From positions 1 through 64,000 of the forward strand of contig JAGQUX010000012.1 of the NCBI GenBank assembly GCA_020438215.1: a stretch of DNA of 64,000 nucleotides. Direction: 5' to 3'. Positions 13,894 to 35,773 of the stretch are shown piece by piece (position 1 is the stretch's first letter; every line of letters begins with the position of its first letter). The stretch comes from Armatimonadota bacterium (GTDB lineage: Bacteria > Armatimonadota > Fimbriimonadia > Fimbriimonadales > Fimbriimonadaceae). Under the pieces are notes generated by a model. That model searched no databases, had not been told where the DNA came from, and was given only the letters and a program-made list of their open reading frames with translations. Position numbers and translations under genes: made by a program.

Positions 13894-13969
13894 GGCCCCG
13901 TAGCTCAGTGGATAGAGCAGCAGCCTTCTAAGCTGTTGGCCGCGCGTTCGAATCGCGCCGGGGTCGCCA
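13894..13969 (+). tRNA. tRNA-Arg (anticodon TCT), integration target
   Basis: A complete cloverleaf of 76 bases with encoded CCA. The acceptor stem is GGCCCCG / CGGGGTC with discriminator G. The D arm is TAGCTCAGTGGATAGAGCA. The anticodon stem GCAGC / GCTGT holds the loop CTTCTAA, giving anticodon TCT (AGA codons). The T arm contains GTTCGAATC. A TACAAT -10 box lies at 13876-13881. The 3' part from the anticodon stem onward is the attL repeat of the downstream element, so the gene stays functional after insertion. Confidence 0.97.
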
Positions 13970-13982
13970 TTTTGAACCTGAA
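13924..13982 (+). repeat. attL (59-bp core, inside tRNA-Arg)
   Basis: Identical to 33281-33339. It begins in the anticodon stem and runs 13 bases past the CCA end, reading ATTTTGAACCTGAA after the tRNA. This is the usual geometry for tyrosine-integrase attachment at a tRNA 3' half. Confidence 0.95.
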
Positions 13983-14015
13983 ATCGGTCATTTGCGGCGT
14001 TTTTTCTCTTGGAGA

Positions 14016-14933
14016 ATGAGCAAGAAAATGACGATTGACCAACAACCTTCTTCTACTTTTCATTCCTCCAGTCTTTCACTTATCGATGCACGAGATGAGT
14101 TCATGATCTACCAGCGATCTATGAGGCATTCGGAGCGCACACAAGAGTTCTATCGAGAAACCTTGCGGAGATTCGTGAACTGGTGTCACTCATCTGATCT
14201 CAATGCAATTTCAGACATTGATTCAGCAAGTTTGAGACGATATTGCCTCACATTAGTCGAGTCTGGACTTGCCGACACTACGGTTCACAATAACATGCGA
14301 GCTGTTCGTGCTTTCTTCTACTTCTTGGAGAGAGAAGAACTCATCCAATCAAACCCAATGAAGAGAGTGAAAATGCCGAGAGTCGAAAAGAAGATTCTCC
14401 CAGCCTTCACCGATGATGAGATTGAGCGGCTTCTTCAGGTTTGCGATGGCAAAGACTTCATCTCAGTCCGCAATAGGGCGCTGATTCTTTTTCTACTTGA
14501 CTCTGGGCTAAGGTGTGACGAGTGCAGGAGTCTCAAAACAGCTGACATTGACTTGCAAACGGGTGTTTTCTCAGTTGTCGGAAAAGGGCGCAAGGAAAGA
14601 GTCAGTAGGATCGGCACAAAAGCACTCAGAGAATTACGCAGATATTTGCGGTTCCATAGGCCAACAACCTCCCAGCAACTTTGGATCGGTAAACAAGGTG
14701 ACCTCACAGCCCTTGGAATCTCTGGAATCATCAAGAAAGTTGGAAAGAAGGCAGGTGTTCATGCGCACCCTCATAAGTTTAGAAGGACATGTGCTCTCAG
14801 ACTCCTTCGAAGCAATGCAGATATCTTCTCTGTGCAGATCCTGATGGGTCACTCTGATATCACCGTGCTTCGCAGATATTTGGCTCAATCGAACGAGGAT
14901 GTGCTCGCTGTTCATGCGCGGTGCATTGAGTGA
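14016..14933 (+). CDS. int: Tyrosine recombinase / integrase (XerC/D-like)
   Basis: About 305 residues with an N-terminal SAM-like core-binding domain (FMIYQRSMRHSERTQEFYRETLRRF) and a C-terminal catalytic domain. Catalytic residues are visible: Arg in LDSGLRCDECRSL, Lys in VVGKGRKER, HKFRRT (HxxR), GHSD, and Tyr in LRRYL. Its position beside attL identifies it as the enzyme that integrates and excises the element. The start is uncertain: ATGs at 14016 and 14028 share a GGAG at 14011 that suits neither perfectly, and a longer TTG frame exists at 13992. Confidence 0.93.
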   Translation: MSKKMTIDQQPSSTFHSSSLSLIDARDEFMIYQRSMRHSERTQEFYRETLRRFVNWCHSSDLNAISDIDSASLRRYCLTLVESGLADTTVHNNMRAVRAFFYFLEREELIQSNPMKRVKMPRVEKKILPAFTDDEIERLLQVCDGKDFISVRNRALILFLLDSGLRCDECRSLKTADIDLQTGVFSVVGKGRKERVSRIGTKALRELRRYLRFHRPTTSQQLWIGKQGDLTALGISGIIKKVGKKAGVHAHPHKFRRTCALRLLRSNADIFSVQILMGHSDITVLRRYLAQSNEDVLAVHARCIE

Positions 14934-15284: not shown

Positions 15285-15296
15285 TTCGAACGACAC

Positions 15297-15324: not shown

Positions 15325-15508
15325 TAACTATCATTTGAATGGATATAGACGAATGTAATTCTAAGCTTATATTCATGGAATTGGGGTTACGATGGAAAGT
15401 ACCGATACCGTAAGAAACAGGACTTTCCGGGAAGTTTTCTGCGCTCATGCTTGTCAGAGTAATCCTATGAAGTGGAGAATGATTTCTCATAGTTGATCAA
15501 TCTCGGTG

Positions 15509-19065: not shown

Positions 19066-19140
19066 ACATGAATATTTTGCATAAATTATTTATTCTTAGC
19101 AAGAGATTCAATCTAAAATCGGAATTTTCACAGGAATTAA

Positions 19141-19575
19141 ATCAAAGGCGCACTTCTGAATCGTCCACTCTATCGAAGTCGTGATCTTGAGTTTTGCAAG
19201 TTGGTTTTGCGTGAGCTAGATGTTTCCATGCAGTCACATGGAATGACGGCAGATTACACGACGATCACTTCAATAGAGCACATCATGCCCCAAACGCTTG
19301 ATCGTGCTTGGAAGGAGTATCTGGGAGAAGATGTTGATTCAGATGAATATGACCGCTTGATTAATACCATTGGAAACCTTTGTTTAGTCAGCGCATCAGC
19401 CAACTCAAGTTACAGTAATCATCCATTTCAGCAGAAACTGGAGTCGTATTCCGACCTGACGGCTCTGGTGCGTGACGTCAAAGAGAACCATGCAAATTGG
19501 AGGTACGAGGATATCCGTCAAAGATCATCGCGGCTCGCCGAGAGGGCAATAGAAGTTTGGAATTGGAATGAGTAG
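19141..19575 (+). pseudogene. 5'-truncated GmrSD-type gene (DUF1524 HNH end)
   Basis: Only the C-terminal part remains. The frame opens after a stop near 19138 and contains SIEHIMPQTL, W..YLGED, TIGNLCLVSASANS, YSNHPFQQKLESY, the conserved HNH signature of DUF1524 nucleases found at the C-terminus of GmrSD/DUF262 type IV restriction proteins. The N-terminal DUF262 ParB-like NTPase half is missing, and a TTG at 19201 would give only 124 residues. It faces the restriction-like block and probably records an older defence gene lost by replacement. Confidence 0.75.
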
Positions 19576-19581
19576 CAAACT

Positions 19582-20169
19582 CTAGAACAGTGGATCGATA
19601 TCGGGCTCATATTCGAATGCTTGCAAGGCGTTTTGCCAAGAAAATGTACTTTCAGGGATTGGGAAAACTTCAGCTTCGAGGTACATCTTCGTGCGGAATA
19701 CCAGACTTTCTCTTCTTCTCTTCTTCCAAATTCTTTTGACTATGGTCTTTTCTTCTTTCTCCTTCCTTACGAGTAGATCCCCCCACTCCTGCCGCATCCA
19801 ATACCAAGCCGGTCTTGCAAAGGGGCTCAACTTCCTCTCTACATCCCAAAATTCAGGAGGGTGATCCTTAGTGACTCCATCTTCTACCTCTCTTGGTTGG
19901 ATCAATAAGTGAATGTGCTCGTGAATGAGGACGTGACGCATTACCTCTTCAGGCAACCAAGGCACATTAAAAATGGGGTGAAGTTCGATCCTTGATGGCT
20001 CAATGTCTGTAGTAATTGAGGCGAGTGTTTGCTTATCTACGATAACAACTTCGGGGAGTTGTTGACCATGCCCTACTAATGAGCATGCTTCTTCATTGAG
20101 CGTATCAAGGTTGAACTCAAAGCATGGTAATTCAAAGTTTTTGACATGTTGTGGTACTGGAAATCTCAT
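19582..20169 (-). CDS. SprT/gluzincin-like metallopeptidase of the defence block
   Basis: A 195-residue protein with a minimal zinc-protease core: LIHEHIHLLIQPRE near residue 80-93 (HExxH), then KDHPPEFWDVERKL supplying a likely third His, as in SprT/WSS1/YgjP-like gluzincins. The C-terminal 60 residues are basic. SprT-like enzymes elsewhere cut DNA-protein crosslinks or interact with restriction systems. It begins 72 bases after the methylase stop on the same strand and is probably the last gene of the helicase-methylase operon. No signal peptide is present, so it is cytoplasmic. The family is moderately sure; its role in defence is inference. Confidence 0.65.
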   Translation of the reverse strand: MRFPVPQHVKNFELPCFEFNLDTLNEEACSLVGHGQQLPEVVIVDKQTLASITTDIEPSRIELHPIFNVPWLPEEVMRHVLIHEHIHLLIQPREVEDGVTKDHPPEFWDVERKLSPFARPAWYWMRQEWGDLLVRKEKEEKTIVKRIWKKRRRESLVFRTKMYLEAEVFPIPESTFSWQNALQAFEYEPDIDPLF

Positions 20170-20241
20170 GCGCTGTTGTATACCACTACTGTTTATGATT
20201 CTGATTTCTTGAAGATAACGGCTCGCATAAGAGGGTGGAAG

Positions 20242-23200: not shown

Positions 23201-24129
23201 TCCACTCCTGGTAGCTCGTATTTTTGACGCTCAAATAGTCCTCCATTAAGGTAAGGAACTTTGCCAACAAACGGTTCTAGTAGAGAACGCACCTCATCTG
23301 AACTTTGACAAAGTGCTTCAAAGAAGAGCTTTGCGAGTCGATTTTCATAAAATCTCTCTCCTCTCGGGTTTGACTTCCAATTTTCATATACAGCTGATAA
23401 GTAATCTTCCCTGCGACCACCAAATTCTAGCCACCCCTTCTTGGAAAGAAAAACCAGGAATAGAAGTCGGTTCATTGCTCTTTGCAAAATGAAGTTTTGA
23501 GCCTCTTTTAGCTCTGCCGGGGTTTTGAACTTCCGACCATTGGCTAGTTCGATTTTTATCTGTGATCTGTATTTGGAGAAAAACTTTTGGTAAGTGTCAA
23601 AAAATTCATTAGTTACAGCGCGCGTTGACCAAGCTTTTCCCCAAGATTCCTGTGAAGACCACTTGAGACATGGCAAGTTAGCATTGCAAACAGTCCTGGA
23701 CTGTCTAGGATCAGACCAGCCAAAGGTTCTGAGCTTTGCATTGGCTGGTTTATCCCCGGTGTAGTGTCCGAGTGTCCAGATTGAATTCTCGCTCCGGCAA
23801 ATGAACAGGATGTTGTCGTGAGCCCAGGTTCTTTCGGCGTGTTGCTGGCGTTCTTTTTCGGCGACTTTGTTGAGGATGGATCGGAGTTGGCCCCGTTCGA
23901 GCCGGTTAGCGCCAAAGTCGACGATGAATATTCCCCAAGTTTGATCGTCGGACAGTTGCTGCACGGCAAGGATGTCTTGCACGCCTTCCCGTTTATCGAT
24001 TTCGTACAGGTGGGCGATCCCCGCAAACGTGCTCCATTGATCGCGTGGCCATTGGAGTTCATCATGGAACAGCTGGGCAAGGTCTTCAAACGATTTGATA
24101 TTTGATAGATGCTGCGGGTTTATCGCCAT
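20242..24129 (-). CDS. Eco57I-type N6-adenine methylase fused to AlbA_2 domain
   Basis: A 1295-residue protein. The N-terminal 400 residues resemble the non-catalytic front of type IIG/PglX-like enzymes. The AdoMet motif I VVDPACGSGAYLLGML is near residue 435 and motif IV ILANPPYGVG near 630, marking an adenine-N6 methyltransferase. A TaqI-like target-recognition region follows (about 800-1080). The end (about 1145-1290) is a Schlafen/AlbA_2 fold: IEFKETYSWDVK, AAFRNTQGGKLFIGV, GQIKGL. The start ATG overlaps the stop of the preceding gene (TAATG), so translation is coupled. No clear PD-(D/E)XK motif was found. The AlbA_2 fusion is unusual and may act as an effector. Confidence 0.9.
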   Translation of the reverse strand: MAINPQHLSNIKSFEDLAQLFHDELQWPRDQWSTFAGIAHLYEIDKREGVQDILAVQQLSDDQTWGIFIVDFGANRLERGQLRSILNKVAEKERQQHAERTWAHDNILFICRSENSIWTLGHYTGDKPANAKLRTFGWSDPRQSRTVCNANLPCLKWSSQESWGKAWSTRAVTNEFFDTYQKFFSKYRSQIKIELANGRKFKTPAELKEAQNFILQRAMNRLLFLVFLSKKGWLEFGGRREDYLSAVYENWKSNPRGERFYENRLAKLFFEALCQSSDEVRSLLEPFVGKVPYLNGGLFERQKYELPGVDEDFATLPEEMFEELLGEQGILNSYNFTVVESYDETDEDVAVDPEMLGRIFERLVLDREKLGKFYTPRIIVRFMCRESLKKYLGPEFTNLIDANSREEKKRQAEVLSGAQLRHAINLLRDVRVVDPACGSGAYLLGMLHELFEIMLAIEIGLKERTETERYSLKLEIIEQNIYGVDMDEFATGIAMLRLWLSLVVDSDLHPIEQSDVDVSLPNLRFKIRNGDSLSAPNPRGLNVLVANQYTEIARRLGELHSEFFISDQKRVRTRTSVEEEIVSVTGQLTELLRDDPAPTGSFDWRLEFAEVFAPSTSNGAIRGFDIILANPPYGVGVDNDVRYRYFRKAEGSQSKDSYGIFMARALELMRDGGTMCYIVSDTWRTIQSHLPLRKRLVRQTTVHHFIDLPSWVFDATVNTNIVTITNKLPPANHEVIASDLRAIPNHDWGTLDANLGAISECGANLQSLNYARYSYPQSYIGINSNFSFFILSPRLYGITRDVRHFDSGNEVQIEWLSATVNPDDKEFVKLGTLAEIKQGLATGKNELYLCKREGARGNYSILNESEILRETEICALSDDEKQNGVDPKMYGGRKFVPYDKGGESEASDGWLPNYWVPTAYFIDWSRDSLHKLKSLKSEKQSGKIASRFQNSQYYFVQGITWSDAGVYSPTVRMSGNGVFDVKGSRMITKKKSRHFLLGLLCSRFMRFLIKGICNHTVSTQVDDFRELPIPSDKRDGLSAIELSIERFVMAIIEKQSEDARYPYHSNEQVQIDQLVYQLYGLSEDDVRDVELWFCRRYPKLAEAQGLLSEVMEKYSDYLDSCDFILSRPRGYWNSHPVLSDISKMEGQRIEFKETYSWDVKEDRINKELRHEVLRTVAAFRNTQGGKLFIGVHDSGQIKGLTRDLKSLSKDQDSFERVLSDLFVSSLEPSPHDAASIEFHQFEEGLICTVEINPDPGGIQYVTWNNEHELWIREGNRSRKLSGKERDDWILKRAGK

Positions 24130-24683
24130 TAGGGTTGGTTCCTGAGCTTATCGAGTTTCTGCCACTTTATTCCATCGAAGTAGTAGCAACAGTCAAATAC
24201 GTTTGCGGTATGGCTCTTTCTATTCGGATGCAAGAGTTCGGAAAGCATCGTGTAGGCATGATTGATACTTGCGGCTTCAATTCCGAGAAAAGGAACTGTC
24301 AGAGCGTCTGATTCGAGTTTCATCGCTCCGTTGCGGTTGCCGACGATCTTGAGGTCACCAGTCGGTACGAGTTCAAACCAAACAGCGTATTCGCTTGGCA
24401 GAGTAGGATTATCGGGCCGTTCAATGGAATTGTAATGCTGGGTGAGTTCCTGTTTGGGGAATGTTGGATTTTTCAGCCCGATCCAGATGCCCCTTTTAAG
24501 TGGGATATGAATTGACATCTCATCTTCCCACTGCTTTCTCACAACAGGCGGAAGTTGAGACGTATCAAAGCTCAAGTCGACAAGAATTTCGGTATCTGTT
24601 ACCGGGAGCTCGTTTGCTAAAGCGCGAACAGATATGCCACGCTTTGGATCGAAAGAGAAGAGGACGGGGATCGAGACTTTCAT
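24129..24683 (-). CDS. Unknown accessory protein of the defence block
   Basis: A 184-residue soluble protein with no family I recognise. It shows alternating strands (MKVSIPVLFSFDPKRG, TEILVDLSFD, YAVWFELVPTGDLKIVG) and a conserved-looking C-terminal CCYYFDGIKWQKL. I start at the ATG at 24683 because it overlaps the helicase stop as TGATG, a classic coupling; an earlier ATG at 24698 overlaps by 16. Its stop overlaps the methylase start as TAATG. This tight packing between helicase and methylase argues for a stoichiometric complex partner. Function unknown. Confidence 0.7.
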   Translation of the reverse strand: MKVSIPVLFSFDPKRGISVRALANELPVTDTEILVDLSFDTSQLPPVVRKQWEDEMSIHIPLKRGIWIGLKNPTFPKQELTQHYNSIERPDNPTLPSEYAVWFELVPTGDLKIVGNRNGAMKLESDALTVPFLGIEAASINHAYTMLSELLHPNRKSHTANVFDCCYYFDGIKWQKLDKLRNQP

Positions 24684-27600
24684 CAGATTTCCATCCAACA
24701 GATCAGTTCGTCTTTGTGATCTGCGGCTATCCCGGCTCGGAAGCGGTGCGTAGCGAGGGGGCCGTTTTCGACGAGTTTTCTTAGCCTTGTCCTTTCTTCT
24801 TTCGGCATATCGATGTTGCGGGCCGTTCCTTCAGCGCATTCGATTTGAGCATGGATTTCTGGGAGTGATTCTACGATCTTATCGGTTTCCGAATCGACCA
24901 AGAACCACTTGACATCCGTCAAGGTTTCCCCGCTTTGGTCGTCATCTTTGAATCCAGTGTGTACGCGGTATGCCAAAAACAGTTTTTTCCCCGATCCAGG
25001 TTTGCCGGAATAGATTCTGCTGGGGAACTGATGTGATTCTGCCCATAATTCGGGATGCTTCGCTTCAAGCTCATGTGCTTTTAGGCGGACTTGCTCTTGT
25101 GGAGACATCGTGAAGTCCCCGAGATTTTGATAAAAGTCCATTGCTTTGAAGTCGTCATCTGCGGTTAGCACGGGTGCTTCAATCCCCAAAGTCTTATTGA
25201 TTGCGATGAGCTTTCCGGAGACGCGAGTATAGAGTTGGAGTATCGGTTCGAGCTCGGCTGGCGGAAGGAAGTTATAGACATGGACTTTGTTATAATCAAC
25301 CGGTTTTCGGGGATCCATTCGCCGATCAACGCGACCAATCCGTTGCATGAGCCTGACTGGGTTCCAGTGGAGGTCGTAATTGATGATTTGGTTGGCGTCT
25401 TGAAGGTTGAGACCTTCGCTTAAGACGTCCGTTGTGACAAGTATTCGAATGGGTTCGGCTAAGGCTTTCTGAAGGTCTACATCATCTTCACAGTTGTAGT
25501 GTGGGGCAAAGCGTTTGATGATGTCTTCTCGCCGCTTGACATTCCTTCCGGAATCGACTTCGATGATTTCTTTCGGATCGAAGTGCCGTTTCAATTGCTC
25601 CTCCAAGTAGCGCGCGGTGTCTTTGAACTCTGAGAAGATAACAAATTTCTTTTCACTCAGATCGGAATTGGATTTTATCGCCGTGAGCAAAGCATCTAAC
25701 TTAGCGTCGTGATTTGGGCCTGTGACTGCATGCAAGCCATTTAGGAGTGAAGACAGAACGCGAATATCACTTTCGAGGAGCGTGATCCAATCTCGTTCGT
25801 TTCGACCGAATTCTTTGAGGTCTTCGCGCACCTTGTTGAGTTTCTTAATCTCGTAATTGGTGAGTGGGAGATCATCTTCTTCTTCGCTTGTTTCGTCTGA
25901 CCCCAGTCTTTCTTGGCGGTGCTTTTCGAGTGTGGCGTAAAGCTCGGAATACTCGGAGTACCACGTTTCAAACATGATTGGCTGGAGATCTTTTAGGAGA
26001 ACTATGTGTTTCAGAAGCAAGTCTTCGACACTGGCTTCCAATGCCTTTTGGCTGGATTCGAGCCTCTTGAGGAGCATTGTTCGAACAAGGCCGACAACGT
26101 TTGACTGGTCCTGGAGCGTGCTTGCATCGCGCTGACTTTCCTCCTTGAACTTCTCTGTTTCATAAAGGACCAGCTTTAGCCGTGCCCGCTGAGAATCGAA
26201 AGCACTGAAAAGTTCTGGGAGGAGTTCGCCATAAACACCAGCAAGGGAATAATCGATGACAACGGGCTTTTCGCGCTTCGGAAACTTAACTTGGTCGTCC
26301 TCTTGGGCTTCCAAACTCTTGACGTATTTCCGTGATCGCTGGACGATGATGTGCTTCAGGAAATCTTGATATGCCGGATCATCCAAAAACTGAAGCTCTA
26401 GCTGGTCTTCTTGTTGCTCGCTAATTGCTTTGTTAAACCAATTTCTTAAGTGCGGGACGCCAATCTTCTGGAAGTGGTTCTGACGATCTTGCGAGATTAG
26501 GTTGACGAGGTTGTATAAATCGAGAAGAGTATTATTGATGGGCGTTGCAGTAAGCAAGAAAGTTCGCGTTCCTTTCGTTAGGAGCTTGAGCCTTCGACTT
26601 CGATTGCGATGGGGCATTCTGAAGTGGTGGGCTTCGTCGATAATGATCGTCTCGTATCGTTGTCTAAGCTTGACAACTTCCTCGTCCGTGACTCCTCCAT
26701 CTCGACCAAAATCCGTGTGGGCCATGACCCGGATGTCGTCCGTGTATCTTCCGAAGTCGTCAGGAAAGTATCTGGTGAGATTCCTAGCCCAAACAGATGG
26801 GATTGCGGACTTTGGTGCAACGATGAGTATTTTTTTCCGCTCCATTCGCGCTCGTTCTATGAGCATTAGTCCGACAAACGTCTTTCCCAGTCCAACGCCA
26901 TCACAAAGAAGTGCACCTCCGTGCTCGGTTGCCATTTCCATTAGGTCATGGTAGGCATCTCGTTGGTATGTGGCTAGAAGCGGGTAAATCTTGCTTTCAG
27001 ACTGTTCCCAACCCGATTGATCTGACTCTCGGTCGCGAAAATATTCTCGCATTGCCTGGACGTAAATTTCGAAGGGGAAATACTCGCGGAGGTGTGGCTC
27101 TATGATTGCGAGTAGCTCCTCCCGAATCTCTTCGGCTTCACCCCATGCTTGCTCGAACCATTTTGCAACTTCGTCGAGATGTGTTTTGTCACTTGTAAAC
27201 AGATTGAGCTCGATGTTTTGCGTTAGGCCGGGATGGGTGAAGTTGCTTGATCCGATTATCCCGTGGTTAACTACCCCGCCCGTCTTAAAATGGTAAGCCT
27301 TGGCGTGGAATTTGGCCCGAGTGTAAACCCTTGTTTCTATCCTGCCGCTGGCGATTGCTGATCTCACTGCTTCAAGTCCTGTAAGCGCCTCCCAATCATC
27401 GCGTTCCTGACAGCGCTCAATTCCATTGGCAGCCCTATCTTTAAGAGCTGCAACGAAGGCCATTTTGGTGTTGCGTGAGACCTCGTCGCCCATGAGGAGC
27501 CTTATGGCCTGAAGTCTCTGCCATTTGCCATCTAAGTCTAGGAGCGCACCGACTTCGAAGTAACCAGTAGCAACATCAAGGGCTTTGCTTTCTTCAATGA

Positions 27601-27688
27601 GGCGCCCCAAAGCGTCAAGCATCCGATTTCCAGGACGGTTGTCAACAAGGGTGCCTAATGGCTGCAAGGTCGGCAAGTTAGGGTTCAT
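24683..27688 (-). CDS. PLD-nuclease/SNF2-type helicase fusion
   Basis: A 1001-residue protein. The N-terminal domain is phospholipase-D-like: KFHAKAYHF near residue 125 and GSSNFTHPG near 147. The helicase core follows with Walker A DGVGLGKTF near 268, IIIDEAHHF near 350, LTATPINN near 378 and, at about 760-790, VTTDVLSEGLNL and RIGRVDR. It opens a tightly coupled operon with an unknown protein, an adenine methylase and a metallopeptidase. Similar helicase/methylase/PLD sets occur in DISARM and related DNA-modification-based defence, but no DUF1998 gene is present. It likely translocates on and cuts unmodified DNA; that is inferred. Confidence 0.9.
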   Translation of the reverse strand: MNPNLPTLQPLGTLVDNRPGNRMLDALGRLIEESKALDVATGYFEVGALLDLDGKWQRLQAIRLLMGDEVSRNTKMAFVAALKDRAANGIERCQERDDWEALTGLEAVRSAIASGRIETRVYTRAKFHAKAYHFKTGGVVNHGIIGSSNFTHPGLTQNIELNLFTSDKTHLDEVAKWFEQAWGEAEEIREELLAIIEPHLREYFPFEIYVQAMREYFRDRESDQSGWEQSESKIYPLLATYQRDAYHDLMEMATEHGGALLCDGVGLGKTFVGLMLIERARMERKKILIVAPKSAIPSVWARNLTRYFPDDFGRYTDDIRVMAHTDFGRDGGVTDEEVVKLRQRYETIIIDEAHHFRMPHRNRSRRLKLLTKGTRTFLLTATPINNTLLDLYNLVNLISQDRQNHFQKIGVPHLRNWFNKAISEQQEDQLELQFLDDPAYQDFLKHIIVQRSRKYVKSLEAQEDDQVKFPKREKPVVIDYSLAGVYGELLPELFSAFDSQRARLKLVLYETEKFKEESQRDASTLQDQSNVVGLVRTMLLKRLESSQKALEASVEDLLLKHIVLLKDLQPIMFETWYSEYSELYATLEKHRQERLGSDETSEEEDDLPLTNYEIKKLNKVREDLKEFGRNERDWITLLESDIRVLSSLLNGLHAVTGPNHDAKLDALLTAIKSNSDLSEKKFVIFSEFKDTARYLEEQLKRHFDPKEIIEVDSGRNVKRREDIIKRFAPHYNCEDDVDLQKALAEPIRILVTTDVLSEGLNLQDANQIINYDLHWNPVRLMQRIGRVDRRMDPRKPVDYNKVHVYNFLPPAELEPILQLYTRVSGKLIAINKTLGIEAPVLTADDDFKAMDFYQNLGDFTMSPQEQVRLKAHELEAKHPELWAESHQFPSRIYSGKPGSGKKLFLAYRVHTGFKDDDQSGETLTDVKWFLVDSETDKIVESLPEIHAQIECAEGTARNIDMPKEERTRLRKLVENGPLATHRFRAGIAADHKDELICWMEI

Positions 27689-27745
27689 TCCTTTTTGCTC
27701 GCTCAGACTTCAACTCGTGTATGCCGTGGCTGATTCAAACACGCT

Positions 27746-28411
27746 CTAGCCACCCAATCTCACTTCGTCGTATCCTTTAAACAGGGTGTATACAAAGTGA
27801 TTTATCCCCGCTACCTCCACTCCACTTAGCTCCGCTCTGGCTTTGATGAGTGCTGATAAAGCAAGGATAACTGAGTCATTACTCTCTTTCATGCTTAAAA
27901 GTTCATCTCTTGACGGTGCAAGGGCTACAATATCTTCTTGCATTAGCTTCCCGGTTTTTTCTAAACGGGCGCTCATATCTTTGTCGCTAGTTTGACCTTT
28001 ATACTTTTTCGCTAAGAACTGATCCTTGAAATATTTTTCGGATTCATAGATCGACCCGGCACGAAGTGGAATCCACATTGTTCCTCCACCTGAAGTCATA
28101 GAAGCCAGACCGTTATATTCCGATACGAGCAGGAGTAAGGCATTCCGGACAGTCTTCAGCGTCGCCTGCCTTTTTTCGTCTAGTTTTTGTAGAGCTTGCG
28201 AGTTCGTCTCATAGAGAGCTGTGCCAAATATGGAGATCGAATTCGACATGGATGCGGTTGTATAGTCTCCAACTTTGTTATGATAAAACTTATCCCACTT
28301 GTCGTAACCCATAGAAACCACTTCATTGGCAGTTTTCCCATAGGCATCTGCCGGGTTGAATCTGATCTCGTCGTCTTGGAGAGTTAATAAAAGAGCGGCA
28401 AAGGCTAGCAT
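27746..28411 (-). CDS. Unknown exported protein upstream of the defence block
   Basis: A 221-residue protein starting with a short hydrophobic stretch (MLAFAALLLTLQDD) that could be a minimal signal peptide. The rest is largely helical, with KLDEKRQATLKTVRNALLLLVSEY and SRDELLSMKESNDSVILALSALIK. No family recognised. It lies on the same strand, upstream of the PLD helicase, with a 57-base gap, and immediately after the folded DNA element at 28441-28526. Whether it belongs to the defence operon cannot be told from sequence. Confidence 0.5.
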   Translation of the reverse strand: MLAFAALLLTLQDDEIRFNPADAYGKTANEVVSMGYDKWDKFYHNKVGDYTTASMSNSISIFGTALYETNSQALQKLDEKRQATLKTVRNALLLLVSEYNGLASMTSGGGTMWIPLRAGSIYESEKYFKDQFLAKKYKGQTSDKDMSARLEKTGKLMQEDIVALAPSRDELLSMKESNDSVILALSALIKARAELSGVEVAGINHFVYTLFKGYDEVRLGG

Positions 28412-28440
28412 GTATTAACTTTACCCATAGCGAGCGCAGA

Positions 28441-28526
28441 TTGAGTGGTTGTCTCTAGCCGTGCCCGGAAGGGCTGCAAGGGTCACATCAGTGACCTGCA
28501 AGGCGGCCAGAGACAGATTCACTCAA
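28441..28526. other. Highly structured inverted-repeat element, possible ncRNA or oriT
   Basis: An 86-base sequence that folds as a branched structure. Outer stem TTGAGTG / CACTCAA (28441-28447 with 28520-28526). Second stem 28451-28461 with 28504-28514, 11 pairs and one mismatch. Inside are two hairpins: GCCC-GGAA-GGGC (28463-28474) and GGTCAC-ATCA-GTGACC (28481-28496), the latter flanked by TGCAAG repeats. There is no T-tract, so a simple terminator is unlikely. It lies between an unknown gene and ardC. I do not recognise the family. Confidence 0.5.
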
Positions 28527-28539
28527 ACGTGTGTGGAAG

Positions 28540-29490
28540 CTATCCTTTCAGTCCAAACACCTCATGAATGGCTTCACCAAGTGCTTTTCCCACTAAGCGA
28601 GGCTCTGCATTGGCTGTTTCAACCAGGTAGTCCACGGCTTTTTGTGCGGTGGACGCCGCAGTGAGAATTGCCTTAGTGTCTTTCCTCAGAACTTTGAGCC
28701 AACTCTCTATGTAGCCTGCATGGTCAGTTCTGGGAGATGTATTCACACCTAGTTGAGCGCAAAGGAAAGCTGCCCCCAGTTCAGCGACGAGCTCTTCCAT
28801 AGCATAGGATTCCTCTCCGAATCTTCCGGACATATCCCGGTTCAATCTTGTTTTGTGACCAGACCAATGAATGTGTTCATGGCTCAGCACGGAGTAGTAA
28901 TCCAATGCTCTTTCGAAGTACTGAATGGAGGGCATTTTCACCGTGTCCAAACTGGGAGAGTAGCAGGCTACATTCCCGATGTACTTGATGTCGCTTCTCA
29001 GATTGAGAAAGAACGCCTCTGCATCTGCAATTCGAGCCTGGTCATCGAGAACTGAAACCGGCTCTGGATCATAACCATCAACTTGGTCGGCATTGAACAC
29101 CGAGTAGCTCTTCGCAACAAACGAGAGCGGCCTGTCCTCATCTTCGAGTTCGCTGTTTGTTTAGGTGTCCCAGAAGACAACCTTTGTTGAGCGTTCTCCT
29201 TTCCGAACCTGGCAACCATATTCACTCCACTGGCGGTACGTTGCAAACCGGTGGCTTGACCAACCAGCTTTCAATGTTGCTCCCCAGAGTGAGAGGATAT
29301 TGATTCCCCGATATGTTTTCCCAGTACAAGCATTGACTGGGGAAGATGAGAATGCCGAGGCATTCCAGGGCATACGGTACTCCGCTTTGCCTTCTTCGAT
29401 GGCAGAAATGATCTCCCGCGTGATGTCGGCAAAGACATCCTTTTGAGAGACTTGAGGTTGACGAGACTGTGTGTATTGAGTTGAACTCAT
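28540..29490 (-). pseudogene. ardC: ArdC-like antirestriction protein with in-frame stop
   Basis: One continuous frame of about 317 codons interrupted by a single TAA (29163-29161). The front has the ArdC single-strand-DNA-binding domain: ITREIISAIEEGKAEYRMPW, TGKTYRGINILSLW, FATYRQWSEYGCQVRKGE, VVFWDT-stop. The same frame then resumes (ELEDEDRPLSFVAKSYSVFNADQ) and carries the zincin-like peptidase domain with LSHEHIHWSGH and MEELVAELGAAFLC. ArdC proteins protect incoming mobile DNA from restriction. I start at the ATG at 29490. The stop could be a true mutation, a sequencing error or readthrough; the domains on both sides look intact. Confidence 0.85.
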
Positions 29491-29710
29491 TGTAGCTATC
29501 CAAGTGAGCCTAAGAAGCTCACGCCACACGAGCTGCGTTTTGGCTAAGCACAGGGATAACGGATCACGTTAGTCACGCCACAAAAAAAAGCTGATCCCTT
29601 TTGTAATAACTCCCGATTATCGGAACTCGCTAGAGTTGCGTAGCGAACAGATAATCGCTGTTATGACAAATGGAGATCAGTCGATTGATTTCTTCTATCT
29701 TTCCAAGCTG

Positions 29711-29820
29711 CCGAAGGGGATGGGGGTTAGTTTTCGACCCTCCCCCCATAAATAATTGTAATGATTCAGAAATCATAAAGTATGATAAGAAAATCACATG
29801 AGTTGCATTCTTCTTCATGG
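29711..29820. other. AT-rich, hairpin-rich tract, candidate replication origin
   Basis: Within the 416-base gap between ardC and the polymerase gene. A G-run/C-run hairpin ATGGGGG (29720-29726) / CCCCCAT (29743-29749) is followed by a strongly AT-rich stretch containing ATGATT-CAGA-AATCAT (29761-29776). Such a GC hairpin beside an unwinding-prone region next to a replication gene resembles a plasmid or single-strand origin. No clear iterons or DnaA boxes are seen. The part from 29491 to 29710 shows no supported gene. Confidence 0.35.
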
Positions 29821-29834
29821 GTGATTACATATTG

Positions 29835-29898
29835 AAACCCACTACTATACTAAGGGATAGCTGATGATTATCATTATCTATAGTATAGTAGTGGGTTT
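29835..29898. repeat. Perfect 18-bp inverted repeat downstream of the polymerase gene
   Basis: AAACCCACTACTATACTA (29835-29852) and its exact complement TAGTATAGTAGTGGGTTT (29881-29898) flank a 28-base loop that itself has small inverted repeats. It begins nine bases after the polymerase stop on the minus strand. It could terminate transcription, although no U-tract follows, or serve as part of the origin or a recombination site. Confidence 0.85.
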
Positions 29899-29906
29899 GA
29901 ACTAAT

Positions 29907-31901
29907 CTACTTAATAGGCTGATTGCTAGAGAAATCCACATGCCTCTCACAATCTAGCTTCATGATGATGTTGTGAGATTTACAGATGTTATCAAAGATT
30001 TCTCGAACGTCAGATTCGACATCACGGTTGGATTGAATTGCAAATCCATCGTGGAGATACATCCTCAATTTGACTCCATCAATTTCGCTCACTCGTAAGG
30101 CGAGCGAACAGACGATCTTGTGCTCCAATGCCTGTATGACTTGAGCCACTGCTGATCGAGCCTTTGCCATTGTCGCCGCATCGTATTCTCTTCCAAAGCA
30201 ATCCTGTTTTCTTCTTGCCAAACGTGCTTCCACGAGTTTCTTCCGGAAAGCTTTCCCCAGCAGCTTGATAATATCGTGGCTTCGCACCCTCTTAGCAACT
30301 TCCTTTCCATGTGCTGAAATCAAGTCCCTTTGTGCACTCAACATGCTTGAGCCGTAAGTCAGCGCGTACACCATTGTCTTGAGTTCGTTCTTGTGAATCC
30401 GAACATCAAGGCCACAATCGCTGCAAATGTTCTCCCAGAAACTCCCTTTCTTCATCAAGTAGGTACGCAACTCTGGCAATTTCCACGCGTGTGCGATCAG
30501 CCAAAGCTGTGAAGCTTGGAGATCGAAGACGGTGAATCCAGACAACTTTTGCATTTCTTTTCTCAGTTCACGACTGCAACAAGAGATATTCGTTGGATAA
30601 ATCCTCGCGTTCTTCGAACGTTTGTGATAGATTTCCTTTTCGTATGTCTCCAATTTGTGAAGCATCGCTGCATTGCAACGATAGGTTTCACGACTCTGAT
30701 TGCTGTCGAAGAGATTTTGATTGAGTTTGCGAAGCTCATCGATCATTCCACTGATCCCGTCAAAGGTGTTTGCAGGATCGTTGAGAATGCCAAGCAAATT
30801 CTGGGTCATTTCAGGACAGTCGGTTTCTACTTCCGGGGTCGGATGCTCAAGTTGGCCCCGATCGAAGGAAACTCCATCGAATATTCGCACTCTTTCGTGA
30901 ATAGGCGACTGAGGTTGAACTAGCTCAAGTGGCCACCCCCAGTCTTTCGGGTAGTCAAAGGAAGCGATGAAAGCTGGACCATTCTTCTTTTGTTGCTTGA
31001 GAACTCTCACTCCGTGATCTTTCAACAGGTCAAAACTCTTTTGAATGGATGTCTTTGTCCGATATGCACCTCGAATCTTGAGAATATCATCTAAGCTGAT
31101 AAGAGGCTTTTTCGAGTTGTAATCTGGTGGGTGCGCCAGAAATGCATAGCAAAACAGCCTAAACTTTTCTTCTGAATCGCCGAAAACGGCAAGTCCACTC
31201 TTTCGAGTGGACTTGTCGATGTAGATTTCGAGTTCAGATGTGGTTTCAGGAAAGTACTTCTGCTTTGCAGGCACTAACCTTGGCCCCCCTTGCGAAGGAG
31301 CAACAGCGTCGGTCGCTAATTTCTTATCTGACTCATCGGGGCTGGTTACATCCTGGGTTGGGGGACTCAATTGCCTTGCCCCAGATGTACCCGTACCTAC
31401 TTGCGGATCTGGCTGAGGTTCTTCGGCTGGCTCAGTCGGGGTTCCATCTTCAATTGAATCAGAATCACCTTGATGATCTTCATCATTTGCCGCAACCTGC
31501 GGCTGAATAGATCCTGTTTTCGCAGATCGCTTGGGTTTGCGAACCTCAATTGTATTAGTTGTCCGCTTAATGACAAACGTACATCCGGCCGCAAGAATCT
31601 GATCCCTTGTCACGAACAAGGCATCAAGCTGTTGCTGTGCTTGTACGTGCAGGGCCTCCAACTCTGGTGACAGTCGGTTGTCTTTTGCCTCAGCAATTTC
31701 CGCTGCAAAGACCAATTCGATTTGCTCGACCTCTTCGGGTGTGCAGTCCTTTGCAGTAAGGAGCCTTGGAACGTTGTCTTCAACGACGAAGAAATTTCCA
31801 CCGTTGAATACAAATGGGGCGTGAACGATCGGCTCTCTATCCGGATTTGTTTGGATGAAATCGTTGAGAGCTTTTTTTGCTGTGATATATCTCTTTGACA
31901 T
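29907..31901 (-). CDS. Divergent family-A-like DNA polymerase of the mobile element
   Basis: A 664-residue protein whose C-terminal third matches the palm and fingers of family A polymerases. Motif A is FDLQASQLWLIAHAW near residue 455 (catalytic Asp, compare DYSQIELRLLAH). Motif B is KNELKTMVYALTYGSS near 505, with the exact K-x3-K-x3-Y-x3-Y-G spacing of the O-helix. Motif C is YLHDGFAIQS near 617, with Asp kept and the usual Glu replaced by Gly. The middle (about 235-310) looks like a winged helix, and the region between about 120 and 225 is low-complexity. No 3'-5' or 5' nuclease domain is visible. It probably replicates the excised element. Assignment rests on motifs only. Confidence 0.72.
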   Translation of the reverse strand: MSKRYITAKKALNDFIQTNPDREPIVHAPFVFNGGNFFVVEDNVPRLLTAKDCTPEEVEQIELVFAAEIAEAKDNRLSPELEALHVQAQQQLDALFVTRDQILAAGCTFVIKRTTNTIEVRKPKRSAKTGSIQPQVAANDEDHQGDSDSIEDGTPTEPAEEPQPDPQVGTGTSGARQLSPPTQDVTSPDESDKKLATDAVAPSQGGPRLVPAKQKYFPETTSELEIYIDKSTRKSGLAVFGDSEEKFRLFCYAFLAHPPDYNSKKPLISLDDILKIRGAYRTKTSIQKSFDLLKDHGVRVLKQQKKNGPAFIASFDYPKDWGWPLELVQPQSPIHERVRIFDGVSFDRGQLEHPTPEVETDCPEMTQNLLGILNDPANTFDGISGMIDELRKLNQNLFDSNQSRETYRCNAAMLHKLETYEKEIYHKRSKNARIYPTNISCCSRELRKEMQKLSGFTVFDLQASQLWLIAHAWKLPELRTYLMKKGSFWENICSDCGLDVRIHKNELKTMVYALTYGSSMLSAQRDLISAHGKEVAKRVRSHDIIKLLGKAFRKKLVEARLARRKQDCFGREYDAATMAKARSAVAQVIQALEHKIVCSLALRVSEIDGVKLRMYLHDGFAIQSNRDVESDVREIFDNICKSHNIIMKLDCERHVDFSSNQPIK

Positions 31902-32056
31902 GATTGTCCTTGCCGCCCAGATTTGAGCGACGAGGTATTGAAGATCATCGAGAAGGGCGATCGATAGGGTGCGAAGTTTGAGAAGAGTGCTTTGAAGTTC
32001 TCAGGTGCTTTGTAGCCTGAAACCTCGAGTTTCTTTGAAGTTACTTCGGCCCCACC

Positions 32057-32527
32057 TTGTCGCTGAAAGACTCAGTTGGGTTGAATGTCGGAATGAGTGA
32101 ATCGACTACGTCTGACAAGAGTGTCACTGAATGCTCTAGCAACACAAAATTGTCCATGAATGAGGCAGCGGAACTTCTGCCGATTTCGGGAAAAACCCTC
32201 ACGGACAAGGTGGTCAACAACCCAGAGATAGCCCTCAAAAACCTCCTGCGAACTCATAGTGGTAAGGAGATAAACGAAGAAACCATTCCGCGAATATGCT
32301 CAACCATAGTAAGTGGCGATTACTGGGGAACAATTCCATACTCCGTTGTAGCGCAAAAAAATGACTCAGAAAAAGTGGGCGAGCGGACATTTTCATCGAA
32401 TCACATTTATGGTTTAAGCATACTAATCGGAAGTGATCACAGAAAAGGTGCAAAGTGGAATACTAACTGGCTCTGGGATATGCTATCACTAAGGCTGAAA
32501 GAACTAAGCGAACAAATGAGGATTTGA
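32057..32527 (+). CDS. Unknown HTH-like protein of the element
   Basis: Up to 156 residues from a TTG at 32057; an ATG at 32093 gives 144. An N-terminal excisionase/MerR-like helix-turn-helix is suggested by KLSMNEAAELLPISGKTLTDKV. The rest (GDYWGTIPYSVVA, NWLWDMLSLRLKELSE) is unrecognised. It is divergent from the polymerase gene across a 155-base gap and overlaps the next frame by TTGA. The same LxxxEAAxxL motif recurs in the next gene, so the two may be paralogous regulators or excision factors. Confidence 0.5.
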   Translation: MSLKDSVGLNVGMSESTTSDKSVTECSSNTKLSMNEAAELLPISGKTLTDKVVNNPEIALKNLLRTHSGKEINEETIPRICSTIVSGDYWGTIPYSVVAQKNDSEKVGERTFSSNHIYGLSILIGSDHRKGAKWNTNWLWDMLSLRLKELSEQMRI

Positions 32528-33092
32528 CAAAGCTCAAGATCAACATTGTAAAGGAGTACAATATTCCTGATGCAAAATTACTTAAACTAAGTAATAACCA
32601 TGATGGGAGAGAGTCCACTTGGATAGGTGTCTCTAACCAGCCTGATGAAGCTGAATCACTTGAAGATAAACCGAATGCGAACTTGACATTAAAGGAAGCG
32701 GCAGATACGCTTGCAGTGCCTGAACGGTTTATGCTGAGGGCACTTAAAAAAGAATAATCCGCCGCTACAGACATGGTTTCGATAAAGAAGACCTGTATTC
32801 TCTAGCACATAAATACGGATTTTATCGAGTAATCATACACTGGTACACATCGATAGAAGAAGAATTAGAAGAAGGTTATACAGTAGGAGTGACAGTCTAT
32901 GAATGTCGAACGGTGACGGTTAATGGAGTTATTGTGGCAAATGAGAGAAAATTCAGCTCGGATGATGACTGTAACTATTCTGAGGTGAGCGAGCCAAAGT
33001 TTTTTTACGGCAATGAGATATATGTTGAACTAACGAAATTGAAAGTGAGTATTGGCAGCGACAAAGTCAGAGAGCTAGCTGAACACTATTGA
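32524..33092 (+). pseudogene. HTH protein interrupted by a -1 shift at an A6 run
   Basis: The first frame (TTG at 32524) ends at 32757 soon after NLTLKEAADTLAVPERFMLRALKK. At the six-A run 32746-32751 followed by G, the -1 frame continues without a stop to 33092 as RIIRRYRHGFDKEDLYSLAHKYG and onward. Joined, the two make a natural excisionase-type HTH with its usual basic wing (ALKK-RIIRRYRHGFDKEDL), about 190 residues in all. A deletion, sequencing error or slippage-dependent expression would all explain this. The C-terminal region is unrecognised. Its position near attR suits a directionality factor. Confidence 0.6.
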
Positions 33093-33280
33093 TACTTAAC
33101 TCGTGAGTGCAACTCATTGATAAATCAACTTAGAGAAGCAATGTGCGATATATTTGACGAGAGGAACAAACAGCCGGAAATGTGGCATAATGATCAACAA
33201 GCCTTCAAGAGAAAATCAAGTCAATTGAGATCACTCTTAGGTTCAAAACGACAGACCTGGAGCTCGTTGAGACGGCCTGA

Positions 33281-33339
33281 CCTTCTAAGCTGTTGGCCGC
33301 GCGTTCGAATCGCGCCGGGGTCGCCATTTTGAACCTGAA
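33281..33339 (+). repeat. attR (59-bp copy of the tRNA-Arg 3' half)
   Basis: Identical to 13924-13982 but preceded by unrelated sequence, so only the 3' half of the tRNA is present. It marks the right end of the element. The next gene reads from a GTG directly after it. Confidence 0.95.
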
Positions 33340-33708
33340 GTGAGCACGGTTTCAGAAGCCATCAGAAATGCTACGGAATCTCAAATGAAGGAGCTGGGAT
33401 TCCAATATGCCGGCTCTGAAGATCACGCCATGTTTACTGTAGTTGAATATGCAAACGGAATCAAGAACTTTCGTTTTGTTACAGATGTGAGAGACCAATA
33501 TTTCTATCTTGATATTTCGGTGCTTGGTGAATTCAGTAAGGCGGGTTTTCCTTGGTCTTTCATAGAGAAACTTGGATTGAAGAAAAGAGATTTGCGCATA
33601 TTGGGCAACCGATGTCGTGTTCATGAGCCAAATGAGATTCGTGATTGGCTTGAAGAAAGGATGCCTCTCATCATAAAATTACTCTCTGATCCGCGTTTGT
33701 TTGAGTAG
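33340..33708 (+). CDS. Unknown 122-residue protein abutting attR
   Basis: A GTG start lies immediately after the attachment core, with no ribosome site of its own visible. The protein is soluble, with TVVEYANGIKNFRFVTDV, then FYLDISVLGEFSKAGFPWSF and a C-terminal helical EIRDWLEERMPLIIKLL. It resembles small immunity or DUF-type proteins of accessory regions in overall pattern, but I can name no family. Starting exactly at the recombination point suggests its 5' end may have been replaced when the element inserted; the original start may be lost. Confidence 0.45.
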   Translation: MSTVSEAIRNATESQMKELGFQYAGSEDHAMFTVVEYANGIKNFRFVTDVRDQYFYLDISVLGEFSKAGFPWSFIEKLGLKKRDLRILGNRCRVHEPNEIRDWLEERMPLIIKLLSDPRLFE

Positions 33709-33730
33709 ATTTTGGCAGTGAATACCGACT

Positions 33731-33830
33731 CCCTGAAAGCCAGTCGCCGCGATGCCCTAAATCTTCAATCGCTGGGCTACGGTCGACGATCAATGTAAAA
33801 AACCCTGCCGGACTTACCGTCAATTTTGAA
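33731..33830. repeat. R1: decayed copy of a permease 3' end plus gene relic
   Basis: Bases 33731-33762 match R2 (34369-34400) at 28 of 32 positions; R2 in turn matches the 3' end of the sugar-permease gene (34920-34951) at 28 of 32. Bases 33782-33830 on the minus strand encode FKIDGKSGRVFYIDRRP-stop, closely matching the end of the 133-residue protein (FNIDGQYGKVIYIDRRP). So a second, older copy of that gene was truncated here. Confidence 0.75.
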
Positions 33831-33837
33831 CCTGAAG

Positions 33838-34344
33838 CTAGCACCAATATTCATCTAGTGCTTGCTGGGCAAGCAATTTGCTTTCATCGTTTCTATAAGT
33901 CAAGACTTCCAAAGTGCTGATAATTATCTCGCGCTCATCCGGAGCGAACTCATTGTCTATAGCTACAATTCGCTTCATCCCTACGATACTTGGAGTTAAT
34001 GACTGAGGTAAGACAAGTGGTAATTCACTTCGTTCAGCAAGAGTTGGCTTGATTTCATGCATTTCAATTGCATTGATGGCCGCACTGGGGAAGATAAGTC
34101 GATAAATTTCTGCGCGACTTTCGTACAAATCGCGCTCAACGCGGTTTCCTGCTCCTCCCCACTCAACAGTTTCCATATTAATCGCTACGTTCGGGTAAGG
34201 CCAATCAACGCCTTTCCATAATTCAGCAAGTGCTTTCCTTTCATCCATGCGCGAAGGTAATTCGCGCAACTGAGATAATACTGGCTTTGCTTTGGCCAGA
34301 TATTCGTCAGAGAGCCAGTCTGGTGGATTGATGTGAATTGGCAT
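33838..34344 (-). CDS. Unknown 168-residue accessory protein
   Basis: A soluble protein beginning MPIHINPPDWLSDEYLAKA and ending with helices (REIIISTLEVLTYRNDESKLLAQQALDEYWC). The middle contains WGGAGNRVERDLYESRAEIYRLIFP. No family, signal peptide or catalytic motif recognised. It lies between repeats R1 and R2, reading toward R1, with its stop just after the short ATTTTGAACCTGAAG repeat. Its placement between permease-end repeats suggests it arrived as cargo of an insertion. Confidence 0.5.
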   Translation of the reverse strand: MPIHINPPDWLSDEYLAKAKPVLSQLRELPSRMDERKALAELWKGVDWPYPNVAINMETVEWGGAGNRVERDLYESRAEIYRLIFPSAAINAIEMHEIKPTLAERSELPLVLPQSLTPSIVGMKRIVAIDNEFAPDEREIIISTLEVLTYRNDESKLLAQQALDEYWC

Positions 34345-34368
34345 TGTGAATCACCTGATTGTCACTAT

Positions 34369-34400
34369 CCCTTCAAGCCAGTCGCGGCGATGCTCTAAAT
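34369..34400. repeat. R2: copy of the sugar-permease gene 3' end
   Basis: A 32-base block starting CCCTTCAAGCCAGTCGCGGC, matching R3 inside the permease gene at 28 of 32 positions and R1 at 28 of 32. It lies just after the stop of the 133-residue protein gene on the minus strand, as R1 lies after that gene's relic. Confidence 0.8.
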
Positions 34401-34414
34401 AGTCAACTATAACG

Positions 34415-34816
34415 CTATGGTCTACGATCAATGTAAATAACCTTGCCATACTGACCATCAATATTGAAATACTTTTCTGACTTGTAAATATTGCATGTCT
34501 CTAGCTTGTAAACATAAATATTTGCTCCATCGTAAGATACATCTATTGGCGAATTAGAACTATAAGAATCAGAAACAAAGAGCGTTCTCACGATCTTATT
34601 GGAATTTTTCCTCACTATAACTACATGCCACGCAGTATCGGTCGTAGCTCCAGCATCTTTCGAAAGAAGAACCAAGTCATGACTCTTCGTAAACGCTTGA
34701 TTCCTTGAAAATATCTCAATTTCAGCATCAGGCACAAAACTTAGTATTCGAAAAATGATAATGCATGTGACTACGTATGCAATCGCAAAGATCACAATAT
34801 AGTCAATCTTTTTCAT
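34415..34816 (-). CDS. Unknown membrane-anchored 133-residue protein
   Basis: An N-terminal membrane segment (residues 5-27: DYIVIFAIAYVVTCIIIFRIL) is followed by a mainly beta extracytoplasmic domain (TAWHVVIVRKNSNKIVRTLFVSD, ANIYVYKLETCNIY, KVIYIDRRP). No family recognised. A relic of a close paralogue lies at 33782-33830, each followed by a copy of the permease 3' end, so gene plus repeat behave as one unit. A palindrome and TACAAT box upstream (34876-34903) suggest its own promoter. Confidence 0.5.
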   Translation of the reverse strand: MKKIDYIVIFAIAYVVTCIIIFRILSFVPDAEIEIFSRNQAFTKSHDLVLLSKDAGATTDTAWHVVIVRKNSNKIVRTLFVSDSYSSNSPIDVSYDGANIYVYKLETCNIYKSEKYFNIDGQYGKVIYIDRRP

Positions 34817-34875
34817 ACTCGACCCTTTACAATTTGTGGCTCTAGCCCAGTACAGGTTTCTTACTGACTTGCCTC

Positions 34876-34903
34876 ATTGTACAACACCTCTACAGTAGAG
34901 GTG
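34876..34903 (-). promoter_or_regulatory. Palindrome and -10 box upstream of the 133-residue gene
   Basis: A perfect 9-bp inverted repeat CACCTCTAC-A-GTAGAGGTG (34885-34903) sits just upstream, on the minus strand, of TACAAT (34881-34876). It also lies immediately after the sugar-permease stop, so it could be an operator or a weak terminator; no T-tract follows. Confidence 0.45.
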
Positions 34904-34915
34904 CACAAGCTGGAA

Positions 34916-35773
34916 TCATCCCTTCAAACCAGTCGCGGCGATACCCTGAATAAACAGCCGTTGCGTGAAGAAGAACAGCACGATCACTGGCGCAACGACG
35001 GCAGTAGATGCCGCCATCATCAGGTTCCATTTGGTGCCACCCGCCTGCCCGTGGTAATCCCGCAAGCCAATCGCCAGCGTGAACATATCCTGTGAGCCGA
35101 GGTACAGAAGCGGCCCGAGGAAGTCGTTCCAAGTCGCCATGAAGCTGAACAAGGCCACAACGGCAAGCACCGGCTTCGCTAGCGGGAGAATCACCCGAAC
35201 AAAGATGCCCCACTCCGAGCAGCCATCAATCTTAGCGGCTTCGCTGAGTTCAAACGGAATCCCCCGGAAGAACTGCCGCATCAGGAAGATATTGAACGCC
35301 CCGGCAAACCACGCGGGAATCCAGAGCGGACGGAATGTCCCCACCCAGCCGAAATTCGCAAACATCTCAAATAGCGGCACCATCAGCACCGGAAACGGCA
35401 CCATCATGGTCGCAATCGTGATTTTGAACGCCGTCTCTCGCCCGGGCCATTTGAGCCGAGCAAACGAATACGCCACCACCGCATTGCTGAACACAGTCCC
35501 TGTCACCGTCAGCAAACAGACAATCAGTGTGTTCCGTGCATAAACAAAGAACGGAGCCGAGGTCAGAGCCTCCCAGTAGTTGCCTTTCTCGAGCGGGTTG
35601 GGAATCCATTCCGGAGGGATCTGAACAGCTTTGTCCGCGGTCTTGAGTGAAGTGGAAATCATCCACAGCAAAGGGATGAGAAAAATGATGCTGAGGATGA
35701 CCAGCACGAAGTGGATCGTGCCAACGGCAAATAGGTTTTGAGCTTTGAGCGATCGAGTTGGTTTTGCCATCAT
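34916..35773 (-). CDS. Sugar ABC transporter permease, MalG/UgpE type
   Basis: A 285-residue inner-membrane permease with six hydrophobic segments and the cytoplasmic EAA loop (LSEAAKIDGCSEWGIF...LPLAKPVL near residue 185), which docks the ATPase. The C-terminal FIQGIAATGLKG is the standard MalG-family ending. It is the last gene of the binding protein-permease-permease operon and overlaps the previous gene by one base. The 32-base 3' end is duplicated twice downstream (R1, R2). The ATPase is probably a shared MsmX-like protein elsewhere. Confidence 0.93.
   Translation of the reverse strand: MMAKPTRSLKAQNLFAVGTIHFVLVILSIIFLIPLLWMISTSLKTADKAVQIPPEWIPNPLEKGNYWEALTSAPFFVYARNTLIVCLLTVTGTVFSNAVVAYSFARLKWPGRETAFKITIATMMVPFPVLMVPLFEMFANFGWVGTFRPLWIPAWFAGAFNIFLMRQFFRGIPFELSEAAKIDGCSEWGIFVRVILPLAKPVLAVVALFSFMATWNDFLGPLLYLGSQDMFTLAIGLRDYHGQAGGTKWNLMMAASTAVVAPVIVLFFFTQRLFIQGIAATGLKG
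34920..34951. repeat. R3: parent copy of the permease 3'-end repeat
   Basis: The last 32 coding bases of the MalG-type permease, encoding the conserved GIAATGLKG tail. Diverged copies lie at 34369-34400 and 33731-33762 in the same orientation. Confidence 0.8.

Follow-up and report, generated by a model that had tools for sequence, protein, structure and literature searches.

Degenerate copies of a sugar permease gene 3' end between malG and a tRNA-Arg island in a Fimbriimonadaceae genome

The strip between malG and the tRNA-Arg(TCT) island

The locus described here belongs to a draft genome of the Fimbriimonadaceae (Armatimonadota) of 2.64 Mb in 119 contigs, with an estimated contamination of 0.29%. 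Positions are those of the window, the whole stretch of 64,000 nt that was analyzed. The strip under study is a 1.6-kb interval of low GC content that runs from a malG-type sugar permease gene to the attR of a 19.4-kb island in tRNA-Arg(TCT). Its GC content is 42%, compared with 54% in the permease operon, 46% in the island and 52% upstream of the island. Read in the direction of malG, the end of malG with the first copy of a 33-bp repeat (R3) is followed by a 19-bp palindrome, a 133-amino acid gene, a second copy of the repeat (R2) and a 168-amino acid gene. Beyond the 168-amino acid gene lie a copy of the tRNA flank (S2), the relic of a homologue of the 133-amino acid gene and the third copy of the repeat (R1), and then a 122-amino acid gene on the opposite strand, the native tRNA flank (S1) and the 3' part of tRNA-Arg.

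34916..35773, minus strand: malG-type sugar ABC transporter permease gene, ORF of 285 aa; its 3' end holds R3
34919..34951, minus strand: R3, the final 33 bp of malG ahead of the stop codon, ATTCAGGGTATCGCCGCGACTGGTTTGAAGGGA
34881..34904, no strand: 19-bp palindrome CACCTCTACAGTAGAGGTG with flanks, in the gap between malG and the 133-aa gene; hairpin or operator
34415..34816, minus strand: 133-aa orphan gene, ORF; one N-terminal transmembrane helix, then a strand-rich domain
34368..34400, minus strand: R2, second copy of the malG 3' end, ATTTAGAGCATCGCCGCGACTGGCTTGAAGGGA, then an intact TAG stop; 29/33 to R3
33838..34344, minus strand: 168-aa accessory gene, between R2 and the relic
33823..33844, no strand: S2, copy of the tRNA-Arg 3' flank, ATTTTGAACCTGAAGCTAGCAC; 20/22 to S1
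33777..33830, minus strand: relic, the last 18 codons including the stop of a diverged 133-aa homologue; 45/54 nt
33730..33762, minus strand: R1, third and most degenerate copy of the malG 3' end, ATTTAGGGCATCGCGGCGACTGGCTTTCAGGGA; 29/33 to R2, 27/33 to R3
33340..33708, plus strand: 122-aa orphan gene, ORF, between the tRNA flank and R1
33326..33347, no strand: S1, native tRNA-Arg 3' flank, partly within the attR core of the island

The malG product gives NCBIfam matches to the GlcU, UgpE and MalG permeases, all under the cut-offs, and its orthologues within the genus are 70-74% identical. The palindrome behind malG (34883-34901) has perfect 9-bp arms, CACCTCTAC-A-GTAGAGGTG, and may be a terminator hairpin or an operator (DNA fold z = -1.9). 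The 133-aa protein has no match in Pfam, PADLOC or NCBIfam and only weak matches in PHROGs. Its gene was found in its own genome only among 291 genomes of the phylum, with no homologue in the 290 others, and its AlphaFold2 model (pLDDT 62) is of low confidence and too poor for a fold search. Distant homologues of the 168-aa gene (26-31% identity) are encoded by 4 of 84 other Fimbriimonadaceae genomes, and the 122-aa gene has no homologue in 84 other genomes of the family. Neither the 133-, 168- and 122-aa proteins nor R itself were found in viral contigs, no ORF between R3 and R1 has an integrase match, and Rfam gave chance matches only, under the gathering scores.

All three copies of R stand in the sense of malG, on the minus strand. 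The sequence-only reading had described a 32-base block of the malG end that recurs in the same orientation with 28 of 32 matches between neighbors, and this holds over 33 bp, where both R3/R2 and R2/R1 agree at 29 positions and R3/R1 at 27. A pattern scan of the 2.64-Mb genome that allowed up to three mismatches found R only at R1, R2 and R3, and the reversed control pattern found 0 sites in the same scan. Local alignment scores are 50 for R3/R2, 36 for R3/R1 and 95 for the R2/R1 block with the gene end included, compared with maxima of 24-25 in 300 shuffles.

R3 and R2 have only 33-35 bp in common. The block shared by R2 and R1 is 102 bp long and comprises the gene end, R and, between them, a 14-nt spacer of poor conservation. 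In the R3/R2, R3/R1 and R2/R1 comparisons the right boundary of R falls at about the same base (GGGA), and the right flanks of the three copies differ, with no clear similarity past that boundary. Between R2 and R1, R matches at 29 of 33 positions and the adjacent 14-nt spacer at 5 without gaps; the better conservation of R has a Fisher p of about 0.0015 ungapped and 0.012 with gaps allowed, in a test that used 28/33 for R, one below the counted 29/33. R2 retains the full malG terminus with its stop, TTG AAG GGA TAG (K-G-TAG), and its R encodes the conserved permease C-terminus IAATGLKG, and the terminus of R1 is degraded. Both R1 and R2 contain an in-frame TAG and share the left-half states ATTTAG and GC, which are missing from the malG of this genome. 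For R2, the malG end of this genome (29/33) is a closer match than the best-matching end of any relative tested, and the same holds for R1 (27/33). Inspection of the sequence of R revealed no clear inverted recombinase arms, and R has no special fold, folding no better than shuffles.

The sequence-only reading was also correct in placing the 133-residue gene ahead of R2 and a paralogue relic ahead of R1, each of which ends 14 bp before its repeat. The relic ends in FKIDGKSGRVFYIDRRP and the intact gene in FNIDGQYGKVIYIDRRP, and the two differ by 5 nonsynonymous and 3 synonymous codon changes. Because the left sides of R2 and R1 are the same kind of gene end, gene plus R can be regarded as the unit. 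As a claim about behavior, this is borne out by the same geometry at R2 and R1, with the cautions that one gene only is intact and that the 168-aa gene intervenes between R2 and the relic.

A second repeat, S (ATTTTGAACCTGAAG..AGCAC), has one copy at the native tRNA flank (33326-33347) and another at 33823-33844; the match of 20/22 between S1 and S2 compares with a maximum of 17 in 2000 shuffles. S2 sits exactly at the truncation point of the relic. At the cut site the intact 133-aa gene reads ATATTGAA and the relic ATTTTGAA, and the cut therefore looks like a microhomology join of gene and tRNA flank; with S2 placed exactly there, microhomology probably mediated at least one of the joins. The position of S2 suggests that the present context of the relic came about by a process other than insertion at R. 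R plays no part in the S join, which makes an account by serial insertion alone less simple.

Integration sites and the malG interval in relatives

The island next to the strip (13924-33339) combines a tRNA gene, an integrase, a flanking repeat and atypical GC content over 19.4 kb.

13894-13969: tRNA-Arg(TCT)
13924..13982, no strand: attL of the island, within and just past tRNA-Arg(TCT)
13992..14933, plus strand: tyrosine integrase of the island; Pfam PF00589, E 8e-33
33281..33339, no strand: attR of the island, the 3' part of tRNA-Arg(TCT) plus 13-14 bp; 59/59 identical to attL

An inverted repeat (33239-33263 and 33312-33336) surrounds the tRNA remnant at attR, AGGTTCAAAACGACAGACC corresponding to the reverse complement of the tRNA end and flank, and perhaps represents integrase-site symmetry.

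Nearby, site-specific integration can be demonstrated only at tRNA-Arg and not at malG. The sole integrase in the window uses the tRNA gene, and since a tRNA gene lies within the same 3.9-kb locus for 4 of the 6 relatives of this integrase in the family, there is no support for malG as a target of its kin. Five tyrosine-recombinase (PF00589) matches are present in the genome as a whole. The sequence-only reading had called for an integrase that targets the repeated site, and none with an R-like site was found in this genome or beside malG in relatives. Two tandem tyrosine recombinases of about 380 aa, encoded on contig C97 (L132, 6953-8098 and 8972-10114), possibly mark a second mobile region; they were rejected as the enzymes of R, there being no R copy at that place.

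In congeners, malG and tRNA-Arg(TCT) are convergent neighbors about 1 to 11 kb apart. The genes between them vary and include, by our reading of the translations, P-loop kinases, PEP-CTERM proteins, glyoxalase-like proteins and others, so that malG and the tRNA gene enclose a variable region. As to variable cargo at the permease 3' end in related genomes, other genes (kinase, glyoxalase-like) stand behind malG in relatives, without an R copy. The malG-end repeat was found in none of 13 downstream regions from relatives and in none of 37 further malG loci, some of which come from the same genomes as the 13, and the best malG-end scores in these loci are about those of shuffles. The congeners that have no R copy, with MalG about 70-74% identical, are too distant for an allelic comparison. 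The kinase that is found near malG in congeners has only a partial, weak match here (35% over 83 residues), on another contig.

Origin of the repeats

Of the explanations that we considered for the strip 33341-34918, the one that we favor, and hold tentatively, is that it preserves the scars of serial small-DNA insertions at the malG 3' end. At least one and probably two insertions of small foreign DNA would have occurred there, and their scars would since have decayed. The 33-bp R would be the recombination core, and with such a core each insertion would have preserved malG and displaced the earlier gene end outward; R1 would then be the oldest copy, followed by R2, with R3 as the current end. 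The inserted units, presumably mobile, would have been about 0.55-0.64 kb in length and would have carried one small accessory gene and no recombinase, the putative enzyme having worked in trans or having been lost since. Later, the cut 133-aa homologue may have become joined at ATTTTGAA, through microhomology, with a copy of the tRNA-Arg flank, and tRNA-Arg would have received an unrelated island.

Serial insertion is favored because of the common sharp right boundary of R and the unrelated right flanks, and the geometry of the repeats agrees better with duplication of the att type at the 3' end of a gene than with a tandem duplication or decay of the permease. It predicts an element-borne left half in the distal copies, which is seen in the ATTTAG and GC of R1 and R2; the TAG could not belong to a working malG. 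It also predicts a displaced former gene terminus, as seen in R2, that the oldest copy should be the most degraded, as seen in R1, and that the copies should have unrelated right flanks, as they do, although the apparent agreement of R1 and R2 with these predictions involves few positions. The low GC content of the strip and the occurrence of malG without R in relatives count for it as well. Such serial insertion had been proposed in the sequence-only reading; the right boundary, the conservation of R over the spacer, the left half of R1 and R2 and the terminus in R2 support it, whereas the failure to find an integrase with an R-like site, the lack of R in relatives and the S2 join weigh against it, as do the lack of clear inverted arms in R and of a special fold. 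Young att repeats are usually identical, and the divergence of 12-18% among the R copies is a further point against it. With the repeat confined to one genome and the 133-aa gene absent from 290 others, there is no independent insertion for comparison.

A possible alternative, to which we give somewhat less credence, is that a single insertion or capture made R3-133aa-R2 and that the stretch from R2 to R1 arose where two diverged alleles of one locus, arranged as tRNA, S, cargo, R and 133-aa gene, were joined. A microhomology or RecA-independent crossover would have linked ATTTTGAA in the 133-aa homologue of one allele with the tRNA flank S of the other, a second step that needs no dedicated malG integrase. 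The match of S1 and S2 at the tRNA flank and the exact cut of the relic, with ATTTTGAA common to the gene, agree with such a crossover, which explains S2 better than serial insertion does. The end of the 133-aa gene (45/54) and R (29/33) are similarly diverged, as expected of an allelic block, and the interval between malG and tRNA-Arg is variable among the relatives examined. RecA-independent recombination at short repeats around a recombinase-less island is known in E. coli (PMC5426353). However, a join of alleles alone leaves unexplained the right boundary of R at the same base in three copies and the first R3/R2 duplication of only 33-35 bp. Serial insertion and a join of alleles could be combined.

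A neutral tandem duplication that reached from the malG end across the 133-aa gene, with later decay and replacement of the cargo, would account for the tandem order and orientation of R and the 133-aa gene ends. We consider it improbable, in that R3, R2 and R1 all lose their similarity to one another at the same base on the right and the spacer has decayed faster than R. An assembly artefact might be suspected in a draft as fragmented as this one, with its 119 contigs, but between the copies 4-6 of 33 positions are different and each copy has flanks of its own, which is not what misassembly of one sequence produces; given also the low estimated contamination, we regard it as very improbable. 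Least credible of all is the descent of R1 and R2 from decayed malG paralogues that lost their bodies, as the C-terminus IAATGLKG encoded by R2 might suggest, since a 133-aa gene end and no permease sequence lies upstream of both copies, both contain the in-frame TAG, and an ORF survey of the congener malG-tRNA interval shows a single malG with no second permease, so that the simple gene decay to which full-length paralogues in relatives would have pointed is not borne out.

By analogy with known systems, the malG-end repeat is a probable relic-grade case of insertion at the 3' end of a gene, an event of a known kind. Salmonella genomic island 1 (SGI1) integrates at the thdF 3' end, and tandem arrays of it are documented (PMC2297512). 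Under serial insertion, the strip would resemble SGI1 in having the last bases of a protein-coding gene as the site and repeated att copies with stacked elements; it differs in that SGI1 is about 42 kb, mobilizable and has an 18-bp att, whereas here the units are ~0.6 kb without a recombinase and the 33-bp copies are 82-88% alike. The SCCmec/ECC cassette chromosomes enter at the 3' region of rlmH, where att sites are repeated and earlier elements have left remnants (PMC6222049). Common to these and the strip, read in the same way, would be a gene 3' end as entry point, repeated att sites, remnants and variable cargo, but the cassette chromosomes use ccr serine recombinases and an att center, TATCATAA, that is missing from R. 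As in insertions of the SGI1 and SCC type, the far border of the insert bears a direct repeat of the gene 3' end, here R2 and R1 downstream of R3; the ORFs between R3 and R1 do not encode the recombinase that elements of this type carry. The E. coli H47 microcin island is small, lacks a recombinase of its own and lies between imperfect direct repeats (PMC5426353), but it is 13 kb with a known cargo function and its excision was shown experimentally.

The arrangement of one small gene followed by a recombination-like site, with no recombinase in the unit, is also that of integron cassettes. Unlike an integron attC, R copies the end of a host gene. R as an attC site was rejected, as no block contains RYYYAAC/GTTRRRY boxes and the fold is no better than that of shuffles. 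No integron integrase was identified here; the five PF00589 matches were assigned at the level of that Pfam family. It is unlikely that the strip represents a cassette-like system in the Armatimonadota, with ~0.6-kb single-gene units that lack a recombinase and insert serially at a 33-bp permease gene end through a recombinase in trans.

Provided that the insertions are real, a sugar permease gene would offer at its 3' end a chromosomal entry point for one-gene units that leaves transport undisturbed. A limited literature search for a sugar permease gene named as attB returned nothing usable and no precedent for such a target gene, and little was found in it on mobile elements of the Armatimonadota. 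With the convergent tRNA-Arg site, which in relatives lies about 1-11 kb away, as the other side, the malG end would then make the interval a two-sided accessory-gene hotspot.

Other contents of the tRNA-Arg island

The island encodes a type IIG-like restriction-methylation protein (20242-24129) and a PLD/SNF2 helicase (24683-27688) that matches DrmD/HKD-Snf2; a 189-aa protein lies between them, and this cargo suggests an anti-phage defense cluster. A zincin-like metallopeptidase domain (MPTase-PolyVal, 28540-29100) lies beside the defense genes and matches positions 131-307 of a 324-position phage anti-restriction family, and its gene is possibly truncated at the 5' end. A 664-aa protein (29907-31901) has no Pfam match and a weak match to the RTasPolA (DRT) defense model (E 4.6e-05, residues 503-643), and is possibly a diverged family-A polymerase palm.
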